DNA from: a virus
Length of the DNA: 30,368 nt
IMG/VR virus record: IMGVR_UViG_3300027763_000171
Span: 1 to 30,368 of that record
Strand: one strand, 5' to 3'
Shown here: in pieces, positions 2,844-27,725 of the stretch
How positions within the stretch are numbered: the stretch's first letter is position 1
Layout: each line of letters opens with the position of its first letter
Position numbers and translations under genes: made by a program
Notes under the pieces: model-generated
Told to the model about the DNA's origin: nothing
What the model saw: the letters and a program-made list of their open reading frames with translations, nothing else
Databases searched by the model: none

Positions 2844-3650
2844 ATGAACAAAACAATGGAACCTCAAGAAATTCTAATCACGCCTGCACTTGCGGCGCAC
2901 TGGTTAACATTCAACACGGCAAACAGAAATCTTCCTGTTGGAAATTCTAAACATTACGCGGAACTAATCAGGAAGGGGGAGTTTCTTACTACGCATCAAG
3001 CTCTTGCATTTACGGGAGATATTGATAATCCAAAGAGGTTGCTGGACGGGCAAACAAGACTTTCTGCAATTATTTCAACAGGAAAGTCGATTCGCCAATG
3101 GGTTTTCTGGAACGCGCCAGAAATAACCTTTCGGGCAATCGACGGAGGAAAACCAAGGTCGTTTGTAGATCACAACCCAGATTTTACAAGCGCATCAATT
3201 GCTGTGGTGAATGTTTTTTGGTGGCTATGCAATTCAAGCCCTTCAAAAATAACCAGAACCGACGCAGATAAAATCTGGAATTGTTTCGGACCTAGCTTTA
3301 ACACGCTAATGGAGCATGCGCCAGGATCTCGAAAAGGACTAACAGCGGCATCTGTAAGAGCGGCGTTTTGTCTTTGCATGCTTGAAAATCCAAAAAAAGC
3401 GCAAGAAATTGCAAAAATTTACAGGAGCCTTTCTTTGGAAAAAACCGAAAACATACCAGTATCTGCAAATCGTCTTTGCTTCAAATTGCTATCTATAGCA
3501 GGAAGCGGAATGGTGGCCGGAAGAATCCAATTCTCTTTTACACACAAGGCAATAACGCCGGAAAATTGGAGTCTTACAAAACTTTACGCACCAGAACAAG
3601 ATTATTTCGATAATCTTTCGGAAAAGATTAGAAAAGTTACTGGAGTGTAA
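2844..3650 (+). CDS. DGQ-motif / ParB-like fold protein
   Basis: 268 aa. Residues 14-95 resemble the ParB/sulfiredoxin-like N-terminal domain seen in many phage and DGQHR-type proteins. The signature is LLDGQTRLSA with the DGQTRL core at residues 68-73, followed by a strand and a helix. The remainder (about 110-268) is mostly helical and unassigned. Members of this superfamily bind DNA or nucleotides, some are nucleases and some accompany DNA modification systems; which applies here cannot be told. Base and codon use is clearly more AT-rich than in the flanking terminase and portal genes, and the gene interrupts the usual A-W-B head order. With the small regulator in front it looks like an acquired cassette. 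Confidence 0.65.
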   Translation: MNKTMEPQEILITPALAAHWLTFNTANRNLPVGNSKHYAELIRKGEFLTTHQALAFTGDIDNPKRLLDGQTRLSAIISTGKSIRQWVFWNAPEITFRAIDGGKPRSFVDHNPDFTSASIAVVNVFWWLCNSSPSKITRTDADKIWNCFGPSFNTLMEHAPGSRKGLTAASVRAAFCLCMLENPKKAQEIAKIYRSLSLEKTENIPVSANRLCFKLLSIAGSGMVAGRIQFSFTHKAITPENWSLTKLYAPEQDYFDNLSEKIRKVTGV

Positions 3651-4029: not shown

Positions 4030-6905
4030 TGGAAGCTCCCGCATTCAAGCCCTCGATCCTCGACCGCGCCATCTCGGCGATCTCACCCGTCGCCGGGATG
4101 AAGCGTCTGGCTGCGCGGCAGGTGCTCCACCAATTCAGCTACGACGGCGCACAAGCTACCACCAAGCGGGCGCAGGCGCCGGCGCAGATCGCACCCAACT
4201 CTTTTTCTGTCCAGCGCGACCGCCTCCAGCTTCTCCGCGAGGCTACCGACCTGGAGAACAACTTCGCACCCGCAAAAACTTTGAACCGGAAATACGCGAT
4301 GTATGTGGCACCGCAAGGATACCACGCTCAAACCGGCGATCCTCAGCTCGACACGGACGTTGAACACTACCTCAACCATCTATGGTTCCCAAACGCCGAC
4401 GTTGCCGGTCGAGCTGATTTCTTTCGCCTGATGGAGTTCGGCGTGATCGGGATGAATCGCGGAGGTGACTACGGATGGGCCTACATGCGGCCAGGCTACG
4501 AGGAAGGGATGAGCATTGACGACGCGGCGCAGCTACCGTTCGCCATTCAGCCGGTGGAATCTGACCGCATCGGCGGCGTTTATCAAAACGTCGTGAGCGA
4601 GGACTATGTGAGCGGCGTAATCGTTGGACAGGACGGCGCGAAAGTAGGCTATCGCGTATTCCGGCGCGGGATGTCCGCCGGCCAATACATGGACCCGGTG
4701 GACGTTCCTGCCTCGCAGTTCGTGCACTACCTCGATCCCATGCTCGTGGATATGTATCGCGGAGTTTCCAAGCTCGACGCCGCGTGCTCTCAGCTTCGTG
4801 ATCTTTACGAGATGATCGATCTGACCAAGGGCAAGTCGAAGCTCGCCGCCGCTCTCACCGTGTTCACAAACAGCATCGGCGCGACATCGGGCAGCGGCGC
4901 GATGGACGGATACTCCAGCCAGCTTTTCGACAACCAGCAAAGCGGGATGCAGCAGGACATCCTATACGGTCAGATCAACCATCTGACCGCTGGGCAGGAC
5001 ATCAAATTCCCGTCCAACGAATCACCTGGCACAAGCGATCAGTATTTGATGAATCTACTGCTGAAGCTCGTTGCGATGAGCTACAATCTGCCGTTCTCTT
5101 TCGCGCTCGACGCTACCGCACTGGGCGGTGTTTCTTCCCGACTCGAAAGCGAACAGGCAAAAGCGGAGTTTGAACGCGGGCAAAAGGTTCTCGCGCCACA
5201 CGCGCACCGCATCAAGAACGCCGCGCTCATTGACGCCATCGGGAAGGGACTTTTTCCGGCCAGCGTAGCCGACAAAATTGGCAGCGGTCGGTGGAGCTAT
5301 CGTCCGCATCCTCAGCCCGACATCGGCAAAGAGGCAAACGCCGCGATGAACCTATACCAAAATGGGCTGCTCAATCCCATGCAGTATTGGACGGACGACG
5401 CGCAAGACCCGGAGAACGTAGCCAAAGATATGGTGCGATGGGCGATCATCAAGCGTGACGCAGCGGCAAGAGAAGGATTCACCGTCGAAGAAGTATTCGG
5501 CAGCGGTCCCGCCAAGCCAACAAATATCAGTCAGAGCGAAACGACGACTACGGACGAAAACGGCCAGCCGGTTGAGCCTGCCGCCAAGGCATTTGCAAAG
5601 CGTCCCAAGAAAACGCCAGCCGAAGCCGAGCGCGCTGTAATCATCCGCGATCTTGTGGATTTGCTTAAGGAAAAATTGCCGACAGATCAAGCCATTGCAG
5701 CCGCTTATAAAATCTACGATACTGGCAAGACTCGAGCGCAACTTGTATCCGAGGTGCAGGCGCGTTTGAAAGAAAAAGAGAAAAATGCAAAAATTTCCAA
5801 GAAAGCACCAGTCGACAAAACACCAGCCGAGAAAACACCAGAAGCAACCAAACGCGCGGCAATCATTCAAGACCTGATAGAACTGCTAAAGGAAAAGCTG
5901 CCAGCAGATCAAGCCATCGCCGCCGCTTACAAAATATACGACTCCGGAAAAACCCGCGAGCAACTTGTGTCAGAGGTGAAAGCGCGTTTGAAAAACAAGA
6001 AAACAAACATGGAAATGTCTGAGTTTGCAAGCTGGGACGAGTCAAAGGTTGATCGCGCAAATGATGGGAAGTTTGGAGGCGGAGGAGGCGAAAGCAAATC
6101 ATCGTCCGAAGGCGAAACAAAATCAACGAAGCCCTCTAAAACCGAAGTTTTAAAAGCAAAATTGGAGAAACTAAAAGCAGGAAACTTGGAACGCGCCAAA
6201 GATTTAGCAGAAACAAATGCGCGAGTGCAGGAGCTTCACGGGAAACTTGTAGATCAATTGAAATCAAATAAATCAACGGACGAACTGAAAAAAACCGTTG
6301 CGGATTTAGGAGCAAAATTAGCGGAGACTGAAGCGCACACCAAAAGCATTGAAGCCGCTTTGGCAAATGAGGACCGGATTTCTGATAAGTATGGCGACGA
6401 TTCTGATGAGAGTAAATCAGCCAAGGAAAAAACAAGCAAAGCCGCGAAGAACCTTAACCAGAACGAACCGATCAACTCAATAAAGTTTGCCGCCGTTGGA
6501 GAACGTGGAGGAATCAAGGCATCACCGAAGGCTCCGAAGTCTGACACGCCTAACAAAGACCCACAGGGCAAAGGCACGGCAAAGGGCGATGCGTCAGGAA
6601 AGAGCGGCGCAAAGGTCACCGCCGATCAAGAGAAAACCTTGCAAAACAAGGCGGACGAATTTAACGACAAGGAAAGCAACACCAAGAACGGCAGGGCTTC
6701 CTTAGGCGCGCTCAAGTCTGTATTTCAGCGCGGCCTCGGGGCATTTGCCACCTCTCATTCTCCAGTTGTAAAATCGGCAGAGCAATGGGCATTTGCTCGC
6801 GTCAATGCCTTCCTTTACCTGCTGAAAAACGGACGGCCTGAGAACGCAAAATACACCACTGACTTCGACTTGCTCCCAGAGAAACACCCCAAGGCCACGA
6901 AATAA
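4029..6905 (+). CDS. Portal protein (lambda GpB family) with a long C-terminal extension
   Basis: 958 aa against roughly 500 for usual GpB-type portals. Residues 1 to about 500 read as a portal: LENNFAPAKTLNRKY near 75, DRIGGVYQ near 180, HYLDP near 236, YNLPFSFAL near 355. The dodecameric portal is the DNA channel of the head. Beyond residue 500 lies an extra 450 residues: a duplicated helical repeat (copies at 536-584 and 610-658), a glycine-rich linker after DGKFGGGGG near 685, a long K/E-rich coiled coil (about 695-785), and a distal domain with the RGLGAFATSHSP pattern and DFDLLPEKHP end that I associate with other phage head proteins. An internal ATG at 6009 could give a separate C-terminal product. 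Stop overlaps the next start (TAATG). Confidence 0.88.
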   Translation: MEAPAFKPSILDRAISAISPVAGMKRLAARQVLHQFSYDGAQATTKRAQAPAQIAPNSFSVQRDRLQLLREATDLENNFAPAKTLNRKYAMYVAPQGYHAQTGDPQLDTDVEHYLNHLWFPNADVAGRADFFRLMEFGVIGMNRGGDYGWAYMRPGYEEGMSIDDAAQLPFAIQPVESDRIGGVYQNVVSEDYVSGVIVGQDGAKVGYRVFRRGMSAGQYMDPVDVPASQFVHYLDPMLVDMYRGVSKLDAACSQLRDLYEMIDLTKGKSKLAAALTVFTNSIGATSGSGAMDGYSSQLFDNQQSGMQQDILYGQINHLTAGQDIKFPSNESPGTSDQYLMNLLLKLVAMSYNLPFSFALDATALGGVSSRLESEQAKAEFERGQKVLAPHAHRIKNAALIDAIGKGLFPASVADKIGSGRWSYRPHPQPDIGKEANAAMNLYQNGLLNPMQYWTDDAQDPENVAKDMVRWAIIKRDAAAREGFTVEEVFGSGPAKPTNISQSETTTTDENGQPVEPAAKAFAKRPKKTPAEAERAVIIRDLVDLLKEKLPTDQAIAAAYKIYDTGKTRAQLVSEVQARLKEKEKNAKISKKAPVDKTPAEKTPEATKRAAIIQDLIELLKEKLPADQAIAAAYKIYDSGKTREQLVSEVKARLKNKKTNMEMSEFASWDESKVDRANDGKFGGGGGESKSSSEGETKSTKPSKTEVLKAKLEKLKAGNLERAKDLAETNARVQELHGKLVDQLKSNKSTDELKKTVADLGAKLAETEAHTKSIEAALANEDRISDKYGDDSDESKSAKEKTSKAAKNLNQNEPINSIKFAAVGERGGIKASPKAPKSDTPNKDPQGKGTAKGDASGKSGAKVTADQEKTLQNKADEFNDKESNTKNGRASLGALKSVFQRGLGAFATSHSPVVKSAEQWAFARVNAFLYLLKNGRPENAKYTTDFDLLPEKHPKATK
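5634..6002 (+). repeat. Duplicated 49-residue coding repeat in the portal extension
   Basis: Copy 1 occupies 5634-5780 and copy 2 occupies 5856-6002, an offset of 222 bases (74 codons). By eye 39 of 49 residues are identical, with the shared core LLKEKLP-DQAIAAAYKIYD followed by GKTR-QLVSEV-ARLK. Synonymous differences are many, so the duplication is not recent. Each copy should form three helices. Confidence 0.9.
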
Positions 6906-9845: not shown

Positions 9846-11666
9846 ATGAAAAACCAAAACAACCCACCATTCACCCAGCCGCTCATCGCGCTGGCCGTCA
9901 TCGTCGGCAACGAGGATAAGGTAATTGAGCGATTCATTCGCGGCTTTTACGATGTGGCAGACACCATGAGCTTCGTCATGGCTGTCGGGAACCGCGACTC
10001 AGACGGGACAGAGACAATCATTCACCGAGTCTGTCAGGAATTGAAAATGCCATACGGTGTTCATCACTACAAAAACAAAGCCGACTTTCCCCACGTTGAC
10101 AACTTTGGGGCAGCTCGCCAAGTAGCTTGGGAGATGGCACAAGACGGCGGGCCTAAGTATCTACTTTGGGCGGACTGCGACGACACCCTTGACGAAGGCG
10201 CAGCGGAGGCCATGAGCAACGCGGCAACTGAGGGGAAATACGACGTTTTCGTATGTCCCTACAAGGTGCGCGGCGACATTCACGCGCAGCAAGTAGTTCA
10301 TCGGGAAAGGCTGATCCTAAACAATGGACGCTCTCACTGGCGATATCCGATCCATGAGCAACTCCGATTTGATGGAGAGGTATCTTACAAGATGCTCGAT
10401 GCAGCTAAATTTGTTCATTCTCCCGACTCCACAAAAAGCGGAAGCCGGGAGCGAAACGTGGCAATCCTTCAAACGCGAATTGAGGACAATGCGCGGAACT
10501 ACTTCTATCTTCATCAGGAATATTTCGAGGGAAACGACACGGTGCTTGCGAAGAAATACGGACTGGCTGCGCTGCACGCTCCCGGCCTTGAGACGTTAGA
10601 GAAATACGAGACACTGCTGAACCTTGCGCAGCTTGAGCCTGGCGCACTGGCAAAGAAGCGAGCCAGCGAAGCGTTCGAGCTGATGCCTGACCGTAGGGAG
10701 GCGCTGGCGCTGCTAGTCAATTACGCGATCATTGACGGCAACCATGACAAGGCGATGACGCTTTGCCGGATGATGATGGGAATACCCAAGCCGATTCGCA
10801 CTTATTGGAGCCTCAATCATCTTTGGTATGGATGGAAAGGCGCGGAGCTTTACGCGCAATGCTTGCGACTCAGCGGAGGCGACATCACCGCTTTCGAGGA
10901 GCTCTACAACAGCGAGGACGGACCCACATTCTCAATCGTTCACGCAACGCTGGCAAGGCCATTGCAGGCACTCCAAATGCGCGAGCTCTGGATGTCGCGC
11001 GCAAAGCATCCAAACAAGGTCGAATACATTTTCGGCACTCACGAAGGCGACGAGAGAAGCGCAAAGATGTTGAAGGGATTCCGGCACACCGTCGCGCCAA
11101 AGGGCTGCGGATGTCCGACGAACTACGACATCGCCGCCGGCGCCGCGCGCGGAAAGATTATCATCCAGGCGCAGGACGACATTATCCCGCCATCGGGATG
11201 GGATGAGATGCTCCTAGACAAGATCGAAGACTTAGATGCGCCTGTCTTCATCGCCGTTGCAGACGGACAGCGCACCGACAGACTTTGCGTTTCAACAGTG
11301 ATGACACGCGCCTACATGGAGCAAAAGAAAACCGAGGACGCAGACGGATCAAATGGGTTTATGCACCGCGAATACACCGGAGTCTTCGCCGACACAGAAA
11401 ACACTTACCGCGCATATACCGACGCAGACAAGGGCCGGTGCCAGCTAATCGAGGCGCGCGACATCATCCTTTTCCATGACCACCCGGCCTTCAATCAGGC
11501 GGTGCCGTGGGATGATACTTACGCGCAGGAGAACAGCAGCGAAGCTAACAAGATCGGCAGTGATGTATTCAACCGCCGCTTTCCTAATGCGAAAAGTGAC
11601 GGAGTCCTTGAGCTTCCGCCAGGTCAGCCCGCAGTGCGCGAAGAACTAGAGGAGGTTCTCTCATGA
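9846..11666 (+). CDS. Two-domain glycosyltransferase with helical (TPR-like) middle
   Basis: 606 aa. Residues 10-200 are a GT-A (family 2) glycosyltransferase: ALAVIVGNEDKVIERFI at the nucleotide-binding strand, the DNFGAARQVAWEMA helix, and DCDD at 110-113 as the DxD metal/sugar-nucleotide motif. Residues 205-370 are helical with TPR-like character. Residues 385-580 read as a second GT-A-like unit: CPTNYDIAAGAARGKIIIQ then QDD at 443-445 in the DxD position, and PPSGWDEMLL. The enzyme probably glycosylates a virion protein or DNA base; the acceptor is unknown. It sits between capsid and connector genes, starts just after a terminator and couples by ATGA to the next gene. Confidence 0.8.
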   Translation: MKNQNNPPFTQPLIALAVIVGNEDKVIERFIRGFYDVADTMSFVMAVGNRDSDGTETIIHRVCQELKMPYGVHHYKNKADFPHVDNFGAARQVAWEMAQDGGPKYLLWADCDDTLDEGAAEAMSNAATEGKYDVFVCPYKVRGDIHAQQVVHRERLILNNGRSHWRYPIHEQLRFDGEVSYKMLDAAKFVHSPDSTKSGSRERNVAILQTRIEDNARNYFYLHQEYFEGNDTVLAKKYGLAALHAPGLETLEKYETLLNLAQLEPGALAKKRASEAFELMPDRREALALLVNYAIIDGNHDKAMTLCRMMMGIPKPIRTYWSLNHLWYGWKGAELYAQCLRLSGGDITAFEELYNSEDGPTFSIVHATLARPLQALQMRELWMSRAKHPNKVEYIFGTHEGDERSAKMLKGFRHTVAPKGCGCPTNYDIAAGAARGKIIIQAQDDIIPPSGWDEMLLDKIEDLDAPVFIAVADGQRTDRLCVSTVMTRAYMEQKKTEDADGSNGFMHREYTGVFADTENTYRAYTDADKGRCQLIEARDIILFHDHPAFNQAVPWDDTYAQENSSEANKIGSDVFNRRFPNAKSDGVLELPPGQPAVREELEEVLS

Positions 11667-25195: not shown

Positions 25196-25474
25196 ATGAA
25201 AAAATACTCCTTAGATTACATGGCTGATGACGCATCCTGCTCATACGGATGCCGTGGAATTGGATTCCAGATGATTGATGAGCTTCCTCCAGGTCGCAAG
25301 GCATGCTCAGAAGGAAGGGAGGCGTTCACCTTAACGGCTGACATCGTTCTTATGCGAGGCCACAAATCTGTAACCGTAAAAGCATCACTAGAAAAGCCAA
25401 TCACCGGATACACCATTATTTATCCACTAAGCGGAATCGACACGGAATTTGTTCACCCACTCGACAGAAAATGA
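25196..25474 (+). CDS. Small protein before the radical-SAM-like gene
   Basis: 92 aa. Short helix-strand pattern with several Cys (SCSYGC near residues 14-19, another at 37) and a C-terminal beta part. No family recognised. It overlaps the following Fe-S protein gene by ATGA, and base use turns AT-rich from here, so it probably belongs to the same acquired unit as the next two genes. Confidence 0.55.
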   Translation: MKKYSLDYMADDASCSYGCRGIGFQMIDELPPGRKACSEGREAFTLTADIVLMRGHKSVTVKASLEKPITGYTIIYPLSGIDTEFVHPLDRK

Positions 25475-26295
25475 GAAACTATAGAAATGTGCTAACAGTT
25501 GACATAAACGAGAAAGGAGTTCTTGACGTGGATACCGTGAAAGGCTGCACCGCAGGAATGGCAGCACGGCCTGGAACTGGATGCTACGGAGGATGCTACG
25601 CCGCAAAAATTGCTAAGTATCGAGGTATAGATTTTTCCAAGGCTGTAACAAGAACTATACATTCCAAAGCACAAGCTCGCGCAATAGAGCGCCAAGTTGC
25701 AGCGGCTCCGCAGGGATTTTTTCGCATAGGTGTAATGGGCGATCCTTGTCACGCATGGGAAGAAACCGTAAGCGTAATTGAGTGGCTTTCAGATTTTGCA
25801 CACCCGGTATTAATAACTAAGCATTGGAAAGTGGCGACGGACGACCAGCTAAAGCGAATGGCAGCGTGCGGAACGGCTCTAAACACTTCGCTTTCCGCGC
25901 TGGATACTCCACAGGAACTAAAGCACAGGAAGGCACAGTTTTTCCGATTTAAACTATTGGGCGGAAACAGCGTGGCGCGCATAGTCTCGTGCGATTTCAA
26001 CCCCGACAACGCCGAGGGAGTCAGGATGAAGGCCATTCAAGACGAGCTTTTTGAGCTTATGCCAACGCTTGACAACCCGTTGCGAGTTCCAAGAACGCAC
26101 CCAATGGTAGTTAGTGGAACGATATTGCTAACTGTAATAAAAGACCTTTCTTCAAAGCGAACCATATCGCTAGCAAATGCAAAAACCTACATTGGACACT
26201 GCGCAGGGTGTCCAGACGTTTGCGGAATACCAACTCAGCCAAAAAACCAACAATACAAACCCAAAAAACCAAGACAACTAATACTATGGAAATGA
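25471..26295 (+). CDS. Radical-SAM-like Fe-S protein (phage Gp37/Gp68-like relative)
   Basis: 274 aa. Near the N-terminus C26, C38 and C42 appear as KGC..., then GTGCYGGCYAAK, resembling the cysteine arrangement of phage Gp37/Gp68 (DUF5131)-type proteins rather than classical CxxxCxxC. RIGVMGDPCHAW and HPVLITKHWK look like successive barrel strands of a radical SAM fold. Near the end YIGHCAGCPDVCG gives C244, C247 and C251, a possible second cluster site. The substrate is unknown. It is coupled at the start by ATGA and overlaps the GNAT-methyltransferase gene at the end, so the two probably act together. More AT-rich than the head genes. Confidence 0.6.
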   Translation: MRNYRNVLTVDINEKGVLDVDTVKGCTAGMAARPGTGCYGGCYAAKIAKYRGIDFSKAVTRTIHSKAQARAIERQVAAAPQGFFRIGVMGDPCHAWEETVSVIEWLSDFAHPVLITKHWKVATDDQLKRMAACGTALNTSLSALDTPQELKHRKAQFFRFKLLGGNSVARIVSCDFNPDNAEGVRMKAIQDELFELMPTLDNPLRVPRTHPMVVSGTILLTVIKDLSSKRTISLANAKTYIGHCAGCPDVCGIPTQPKNQQYKPKKPRQLILWK

Positions 26296-27725
26296 CAATC
26301 GAACAACCCGCCGAAACGCTGCTTTTCAAATTGGAAGCAGAACCTACCAAAACCAGCAAAGCAATCGCCGAGTTTATCGCGCTTGAAAGCGTTATCGGAT
26401 CAGGATACGAAACAGACGTTGCCAAACTTGCTATTGAAGACGGAATCGCTATGCGCGCCGCTCGAAAGAATATGCAAATTCATTCTGCAATCGTCCTAAA
26501 GATAAACAGTGAGTTTGCTGGGTTTATGACCTTTCAGAAAAACCATGAGGTAAAGGAGTTTTGTCTTTTGCAATCCGTTATTGCTCCGGCTCATTATACT
26601 CCGGCACTTTATCGGGAAATGGTTGAGGCTGTGTTGGCGCAGAATACAGGTAATTACGTTGCGCTGATAACCACCGACCCGAAAAGCAAATTTGAAACAC
26701 CAGCATTATTCAAGAGCTTGGGCTTTGTGGACAATCTGCTAATGTCTGGGTTTCATTATATGGTCAAAGGTGATCTAAAAGATGCTCGCATGAAGATTCT
26801 AGCACACGTCACGATGACAAACGTGTGGAATACAGTTAAAGGTGATTGGCTAAGGCTAAAGCGAGAATGGAACGAAAAACTTAACGCGGTAGGCGAGGCC
26901 AAAGGAGTTACAAATCCTGGATACGCAACCCGAGACGGGTGTTGGCAGGGGGAAAACGGATACAGCAACGTGGTGAACACAAAGCGATACATTGACGCTG
27001 CTGGCGAGATCGTAACGACAACCAAGGCGCATAACGGGAACGCGAGCGTTCTTGATCCCGTAGCGTGCGAAGTTATTCTGCGGTTTTTCATGCCGACCGC
27101 AGGCCGGCGCGTATACAACCCTTTTGGAGGTGGAGTTCAATTTGGATTTGTTACAGGTAGCTACGGATACGAATACGTTGCCAGCGAAATCAGACAAAAT
27201 CAATGTGACGCTAACAACAAGCTCACCGAAGACTTTGGAACGTGTAATTGGATTCAGAGCGACAGCTCGCAATACGAACCGGAAGGAAAGTTTGACTTAG
27301 TGTTCAGTTGCCCTCCCTACTACAAGGTAGAGGAGTATCTTGACTACGATGGGAAACCGCCCAAAGGAGAACTAAATAGCACTCCGACATATGAAGAGTT
27401 CCGGTCGCTTTTGTGGTCAGGATACGACAAAGCTATTGCAGCAATGAACGACAATACTTTCTTCGTGGTAATGACCGGAGACAGCAGAGACAAAAACGGC
27501 GCTTATTACTGCTCAGAAGCCGAGACAATCCTATTTTTCAAAGAGCGCGGGCTGTCCGTTTACAATCTAATTACCTATTTGGAATGCGAGTTTACGCGCC
27601 TTGCTCACGCAAAAACCACATTGAACTATCGCAAATTCCCGAAGCGTGAGCAAAAAATCATTGTTGCATACAAGGGGGATATTAAAGCGATACGGCAATC
27701 GTTTCCAGCAATCGGCAGGCTATAA
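26286..27725 (+). CDS. GNAT acyltransferase-DNA methyltransferase fusion
   Basis: 479 aa. Residues about 60-165 read as a GNAT-type N-acyltransferase (IVLKINSEFAGFMTF, then LLQSVIAPAHYTPALYREMV, later ALFKSLGFVDN). Residues 230-460 are an amino-methyltransferase: NPFGGG at 278-283 as the AdoMet motif and SCPPYY at 341-346 as the catalytic (S/D)PPY motif, with the target domain behind. Such enzymes methylate N6-adenine or N4-cytosine. The GNAT domain suggests a further acyl-type step on the base, as in phage Mu Mom, but this is inference. The ATG at 26286 has a CTATG context; 26292 gives an ATGA overlap and is equally plausible. Confidence 0.72.
   Translation: MEMTIEQPAETLLFKLEAEPTKTSKAIAEFIALESVIGSGYETDVAKLAIEDGIAMRAARKNMQIHSAIVLKINSEFAGFMTFQKNHEVKEFCLLQSVIAPAHYTPALYREMVEAVLAQNTGNYVALITTDPKSKFETPALFKSLGFVDNLLMSGFHYMVKGDLKDARMKILAHVTMTNVWNTVKGDWLRLKREWNEKLNAVGEAKGVTNPGYATRDGCWQGENGYSNVVNTKRYIDAAGEIVTTTKAHNGNASVLDPVACEVILRFFMPTAGRRVYNPFGGGVQFGFVTGSYGYEYVASEIRQNQCDANNKLTEDFGTCNWIQSDSSQYEPEGKFDLVFSCPPYYKVEEYLDYDGKPPKGELNSTPTYEEFRSLLWSGYDKAIAAMNDNTFFVVMTGDSRDKNGAYYCSEAETILFFKERGLSVYNLITYLECEFTRLAHAKTTLNYRKFPKREQKIIVAYKGDIKAIRQSFPAIGRL

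Follow-up and report, generated by a model that had tools for sequence, protein, structure and literature searches.

Environmental phages carry a near-obligate pair of genes in which a radical-SAM-fold Fe-S protein (gene 1) accompanies a fusion of a GNAT-fold domain with a SAM-dependent methyltransferase (gene 2). We read this pair as a phage-encoded base-hypermodification machine that most likely works on the phage's own DNA and attaches a group larger than methyl, and we put the probability of this reading at roughly 55%. The aim of such a modification would most likely be to keep host defences from recognising the phage DNA, and we infer that it protects from restriction. The GNAT-methyltransferase is present on more than 160 environmental phage contigs in IMG/VR, and its nearest match in the library of viral structures bears the name 'Uncharacterized protein'. 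In the open literature searched, we found no description of the radical-SAM/GNAT/methyltransferase architecture, and an earlier one may exist.

The pair was found in the window, by which we mean the whole stretch of 30,368 bases that was analysed. The window is of tailed-phage type, with recognisable terminase, portal, major capsid, Erf-like recombinase and DnaB-like helicase genes. The two genes overlap by 10 bases, gene 2 starting with the ATG at 26286, and their GC contents of 0.474 (gene 1) and 0.462 (gene 2) lie below the 0.54–0.60 of most head genes, which confirms the overlap and the AT-rich base use described in the original prediction. A small ORF overlaps the 5′ end of the radical-SAM gene via ATGA, and no counterpart of it was seen in related loci. 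A search of the window record, which is a fragment, for a SAM decarboxylase, a PLP enzyme or ParB_N found none.

Features of the gene pair and the small ORF that precedes it in the window
Feature	Coordinates	Strand	Description
Small ORF 5′ of gene 1	25196..25474	+	92 aa; no family; membership doubtful
Radical-SAM-fold Fe-S protein (gene 1, P0001)	25471..26295	+	274 aa; ORF intact
GNAT-fold/methyltransferase fusion (gene 2, P0002)	26286..27725	+	479 aa; ORF intact
GNAT-fold domain of gene 2	26364..26770	+	~residues 27-162; beta4-alpha3 CoA loop degenerate (SVIAPAHYTPALY)
SAM-dependent methyltransferase (alkyltransferase) domain of gene 2	26820..27725	+	~residues 179-479; NPFGGG, CPPY

Two other genes of the window were noted in passing. 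A 268-aa ORF beside the terminase (2844-3650) has a GC content of 0.418, far below its neighbours, and matches phrog_5931 (function unknown, 1.7e-19); it contains a DGQTRLSAI stretch that looks ParB-like, yet it has no ParB_N match in Pfam. Immediately 3′ of the major capsid gene lies a 606-aa family 2 glycosyltransferase (9846-11666; Glycos_transf_2, phrog_13126).

What speaks most strongly for a joint action of both activities is that the pairing persists while its arrangement changes. A first scan of IMG/VR recovered 168 relatives of gene 2 with identities of up to 75%. GNAT-methyltransferase relatives share 61-75% identity, and in six gene pairs the synonymous differences were saturated (pS 0.82-0.87) while pN was only 0.11-0.24, so the conservation of gene 2 is not due to chance. 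Among the first 84 loci, a count that includes some loci from a single contig and, in L004, an apparent fusion that arose by deletion or is chimaeric, gene 2 was fused to a relative of gene 1 in 32, preceded by one in 17 and followed by one in 25, and in most of the exceptions the neighbouring position was taken by another radical SAM, of the canonical type. After more loci had been added and near-copies removed, there were 108 non-redundant GNAT-methyltransferases, 5 of them without enough flank to be judged. A radical SAM is fused or adjacent in 102 of the 103 that could be judged: 43 are fused, 18 have the partner upstream and 27 downstream, 14 have a distantly related partner of the canonical CX3CX2C type, and one has none. 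This sole exception (L008/L009) shows no recognisable radical SAM on a contig of 40.8 kb. Seen from the side of gene 1, a GNAT-methyltransferase is adjacent or fused in 73 of 80 loci. A maximum-likelihood tree implies ~26 changes of partner state, and its well supported branches require at least seven changes to or from the canonical-type partner. Since the pairing survives changes in gene order, in fusion and even in the family of the radical SAM, we conclude that both activities very probably act together; the functional coupling proposed in the original prediction is thus supported, and the search for the same pair in other phages that it had suggested shows the pair to be recurrent and often fused into one gene.

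Some individual loci depart from the common arrangement. The L004 ORF (5899-6600, 234 aa) consists of the first 115 residues of a radical-SAM protein and the last ~110 of a methyltransferase, and is an in-frame deletion or an assembly chimaera. In L048 (5158-5967), a stop near residue 39 interrupts the radical-SAM gene of a pair that is otherwise normal, and one contig of 54,773 bases (L176 and L177) carries the radical-SAM domain twice, in copies that differ and lie near opposite ends of the contig. A scan of bacterial genomes, in which the few patterns used would miss divergent copies, gave three contigs only (Desulfobacterales, Smithella and Desulfobacula); the locus of Smithella sp. SCADC on contig JQDQ01000132.1, with integrase, RecE and RuvC genes, is clearly a prophage.

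The original prediction had called gene 1 radical-SAM-like, and structure prediction bears this out. An AlphaFold2 model built from an alignment of 57 relatives forms a radical-SAM barrel with a pLDDT of 94. Its best structural match (VIA) is spore photoproduct lyase (Z 12.4, 3.8 Å across 214 residues), followed by viperins, pyruvate-formate-lyase activase (PFL-AE) and RlmN, and all of the best 50 structural matches listed are radical-SAM enzymes. Foldseek on its own returned weak E-values, the best being 3e-3. The family HMM of gene 1 also matches 20 members of the canonical CX3CX2C radical-SAM family (E 2.8e-7 to 8e-4), and the four members of that family that were tested score 33-41 bits against Pfam Radical_SAM, where the cut-off is 29.5. 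Direct comparison of the gene 1 sequence with Pfam, NCBIfam, PHROG and PDB sequences gave no match, a Pfam scan of each family member gave scattered chance matches only, a profile search against PDB sequences gave chance pentatricopeptide matches only, and a tblastn search of sequenced phages found no gene 1. A kinship with DUF5131 (PF07505), prompted by the GC...GC..CYA pattern, was rejected, as the window record has no match to it and hhalign gave 0.5%.

The CYGGCYA site (residues 38-44) and the second Cys triplet named in the original prediction are both present, the triplet as C244-x2-C247-x3-C251, and C26 is a further conserved cysteine that had not been listed there. The cluster cysteines are likely C26, C38 and C42, whose spacing (C26-x11-C38-x3-C42) differs from the canonical CX3CX2C. 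C42, C244, C247 and C251 are conserved in 57 of 57 sequences, and C26 and C38 in 56, the one exception being a truncated row. Variant cluster motifs occur in accepted members of the superfamily such as Elp3. By fold and homology, gene 1 falls within the radical-SAM superfamily, with a predicted [4Fe-4S] cluster and predicted reductive SAM cleavage.

The neighbours of relatives point to base modification. Where a relative of gene 1 occurs without gene 2, the adjoining genes are a TAGT glycosyltransferase and ParB (L180, L181), ParB and PAPS reductase (L196), or a second, SplB-like radical SAM (L182, L213). Members of the canonical radical-SAM family, of which 130 relatives were found and 80 fetched, have ParB, TAGT, PAPS_reduct, N6_N4_Mtase and also gene 2 as neighbours. 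The setting of a modification cassette suggested by the original prediction agrees with these ParB, TAGT and PAPS reductase neighbours. We additionally observed a recurrent protein with a DSGAF-like motif and no Pfam match (L334 5373-6140, L353 5315-6082, L303 1476-2288) two genes from a canonical radical SAM and ParB; by eye it looks TGT/DpdA-like.

The C-terminal domain of gene 2 matches the phage DNA-methyltransferase families phrog_498 (3.4e-34) and phrog_12517 (3e-36), and the predicted methyltransferase motifs are where they had been reported, NPFGGG (motif I) at residues 278-283 and SCPPYY at residues 341-346. The FGGG of motif I resembles FxGxG, and motif IV reads CPPY: its first residue, normally D/N/S, is a Cys (Cys342 in gene 2) in 67 of 67 members and likewise in each of the 13 remoter relatives examined. 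Against Pfam N6_N4_Mtase, gene 2 of the window scores 14.6 bits, below the curated cut-off of 26.7, and PF01555 is matched weakly by 59 of the 67 family members (best 3.5e-6). Relatives of this domain in sequenced phages are usually ParB fusions, in which ParB occupies the position that the GNAT-fold domain takes in gene 2. Some of these relatives adjoin other enzymes: in ZRG1 and P2559S the methyltransferase gene overlaps a gene of the AdoMet-decarboxylase family, in Vincenzo it overlaps a PLP gene of the PALP family, and the CPPY proteins of Pam4 and ZS04 themselves contain a PALP domain, which separates motif I from motif IV (L287 1012-3501, L288 2036-4474). The reading of the ZRG1 and P2559S genes as SAM decarboxylases is uncertain, and the analogy is weakened, because phage homologues of SpeD can act on ornithine or arginine instead (PMC10407285).

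The N-terminal part of gene 2 had been described as a GNAT domain and as an acyltransferase. The fold holds: the model (m56941037855c) has the canonical GNAT order of strands and helices and matches an acyl-CoA N-acyltransferase with Z 16.0, RimI/Ard1 with Z 15 and acyltransferases generally with Z 14-16. The loss of the CoA pyrophosphate loop (R/Q-x-x-G-x-G/A) in 66 of 66 GNAT copies of the gene 2 type casts doubt on the acyltransferase role, and canonical use of acetyl-CoA is not supported by these sequences. Despite the loss of the loop, the domain is strongly conserved (RAARKNMQxHSA, with RAAR at residues 57-60, and EFCLLQS), and it may be non-catalytic. One locus, L061, contains the start of a tandem second GNAT-methyltransferase (5209-5871, ended by the contig edge) that keeps a CoA loop, KGNGLA, and matches Acetyltransf_1 (E 0.0024); patterns made from this single sequence gave no further relatives.

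The computations show the three folds, a pairing that is close to obligate, recurrent exchange and fusion of partners, and the context of the relatives; for the machine as a whole we propose the following mechanism. The CPPY methyltransferase domain would recognise a base, flip it and alkylate its exocyclic amine with a group derived from SAM. Bound in one complex with this domain or part of one polypeptide, the radical-SAM partner would generate a 5′-deoxyadenosyl radical and convert the alkyl group, or the base itself, into something bulkier, while the GNAT-fold domain would hold or deliver a third component or position the substrate. The order of these steps and the nature of the group are our own interpretation, and DNA rather than RNA is the probable substrate by analogy with the relatives.

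We place the system among phage nucleic-acid hypermodification systems, several of which share some of its components. The phage ParB-methyltransferase fusions of the phrog_498 group (ZRG1, P2559S, Vincenzo, phiFL3A and Listeria B054) have a homologous CPPY domain, and some are paired with other SAM- or PLP-dependent enzymes; they differ in having mostly ParB rather than GNAT at the N-terminus and are usually without a radical-SAM partner of the window type. Lee et al. reportedly found that thymidine hypermodification in M6 and ViI employs radical-SAM, PLP-dependent and acetyltransferase enzymes on phage DNA. That pathway starts from 5-hydroxymethyluracil and not from an N6/N4-type methyltransferase. 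The CmoA-CmoX-CmoY system, which makes phage carboxymethylcytosine via Cx-SAM, is a proven case of a SAM-type DNA transferase in phages that adds more than methyl and so provides a handle for hypermodification, although CmoX is a cytosine-C5 enzyme that uses Cx-SAM, and the system has neither radical SAM nor GNAT (PMC12783734).

Elp3, the catalytic subunit of Elongator (tRNA cm5U), also has a radical-SAM and then a GNAT-fold domain in one chain, and adds acetate from acetyl-CoA to a tRNA base through radical chemistry (PMC13315578). The phage system could operate in the same manner on DNA, with the acetyl group of acetyl-CoA becoming a carboxymethyl radical that is added to the base and the methyltransferase capping or priming the product. 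The natural fusions do show both catalytic folds in the Elp3 order, and phages make carboxymethylated DNA bases by the other route of CmoX with Cx-SAM (PMC12783734). However, the loop that would bind the CoA pyrophosphate is gone from every gene 2-type copy while the L061 paralogue retains it, and this loss disfavours a simple transfer of the Elp3 mechanism. With the CoA loop absent, the GNAT domain does not correspond to the acetyl-CoA-binding KAT domain of Elp3, no match to the Elp3 family was obtained, and Elp3 is absent among the 50 gene 1 structural matches listed. The phage system also differs in being virus-borne and in its extra methyltransferase domain, and the replacement of GNAT by ParB in relatives means that GNAT is dispensable for the core pairing. 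We therefore consider acetyl-CoA-based chemistry unlikely. A looser correspondence, in which the system, as one polypeptide or a pair, is a DNA counterpart of Elongator that combines alkyl transfer with radical-SAM chemistry, yields an undescribed DNA base and has a radical module exchangeable between two enzyme families, is plausible, though less likely than not. The target could also be RNA, such as a tRNA of the host or the phage; RlmN, TYW1 and QueE are among the fold matches of gene 1, and Elp3 is itself an RNA enzyme. This too seems improbable to us, as spore photoproduct lyase, the closest fold match, acts on DNA, the methyltransferase relatives are phage ParB-methyltransferases, and the radical-SAM relatives adjoin TAGT and PAPS reductase genes.

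That same match to spore photoproduct lyase, together with the N6/N4-type motifs of the methyltransferase, would suit a simpler account in which gene 2 carries out ordinary restriction-protecting DNA methylation and the nearby radical SAM is an independent repair enzyme resembling spore photoproduct lyase. An accidental neighbourhood is excluded by a pairing kept in 102 of 103 loci, fused in 43 and maintained through ~26 changes and an exchange between two divergent radical-SAM families, and we regard the account as quite improbable. Least probable of all, in our estimation, is an acylation like that of Mu Mom, in which the GNAT domain would move a glycinamide-like group onto adenine with the other enzymes as helpers. 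Mom modifies DNA, belongs to the same GNAT superfamily and likewise has no glycine-rich CoA loop, but it has no radical-SAM or methyltransferase partner. A profile comparison of Mom with the GNAT domain, made with a shallow profile, gave no match (hhalign probability 0.1%), and the Mom signature residues KHYS and SFADxRxG, sought in the GNAT domain, are absent. A Mom homologue lies ~1.4 kb upstream of the fused radical-SAM/GNAT/methyltransferase copy in L176 (322-1092, E 6.5e-38), and another lies close to such a fused gene in L063 (9981-10679). Because a true Mom gene is co-resident in L176, the two systems are distinct, and the kinship with Mu Mom suggested in the original prediction is not supported beyond the shared superfamily. 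In both L176 and L063, a single phage thus carries two predicted modification systems.

If the preferred reading, a hypermodification machine acting on phage DNA, is true, the pair would stand for a new class of chemistry in the modification of phage DNA, one in which radical chemistry is coupled to a SAM transferase. The natural single-chain fusions, such as L014:3663-5843, would then be handy for biochemistry, and how phages make bulky bases on an amino-methyltransferase scaffold would become testable.
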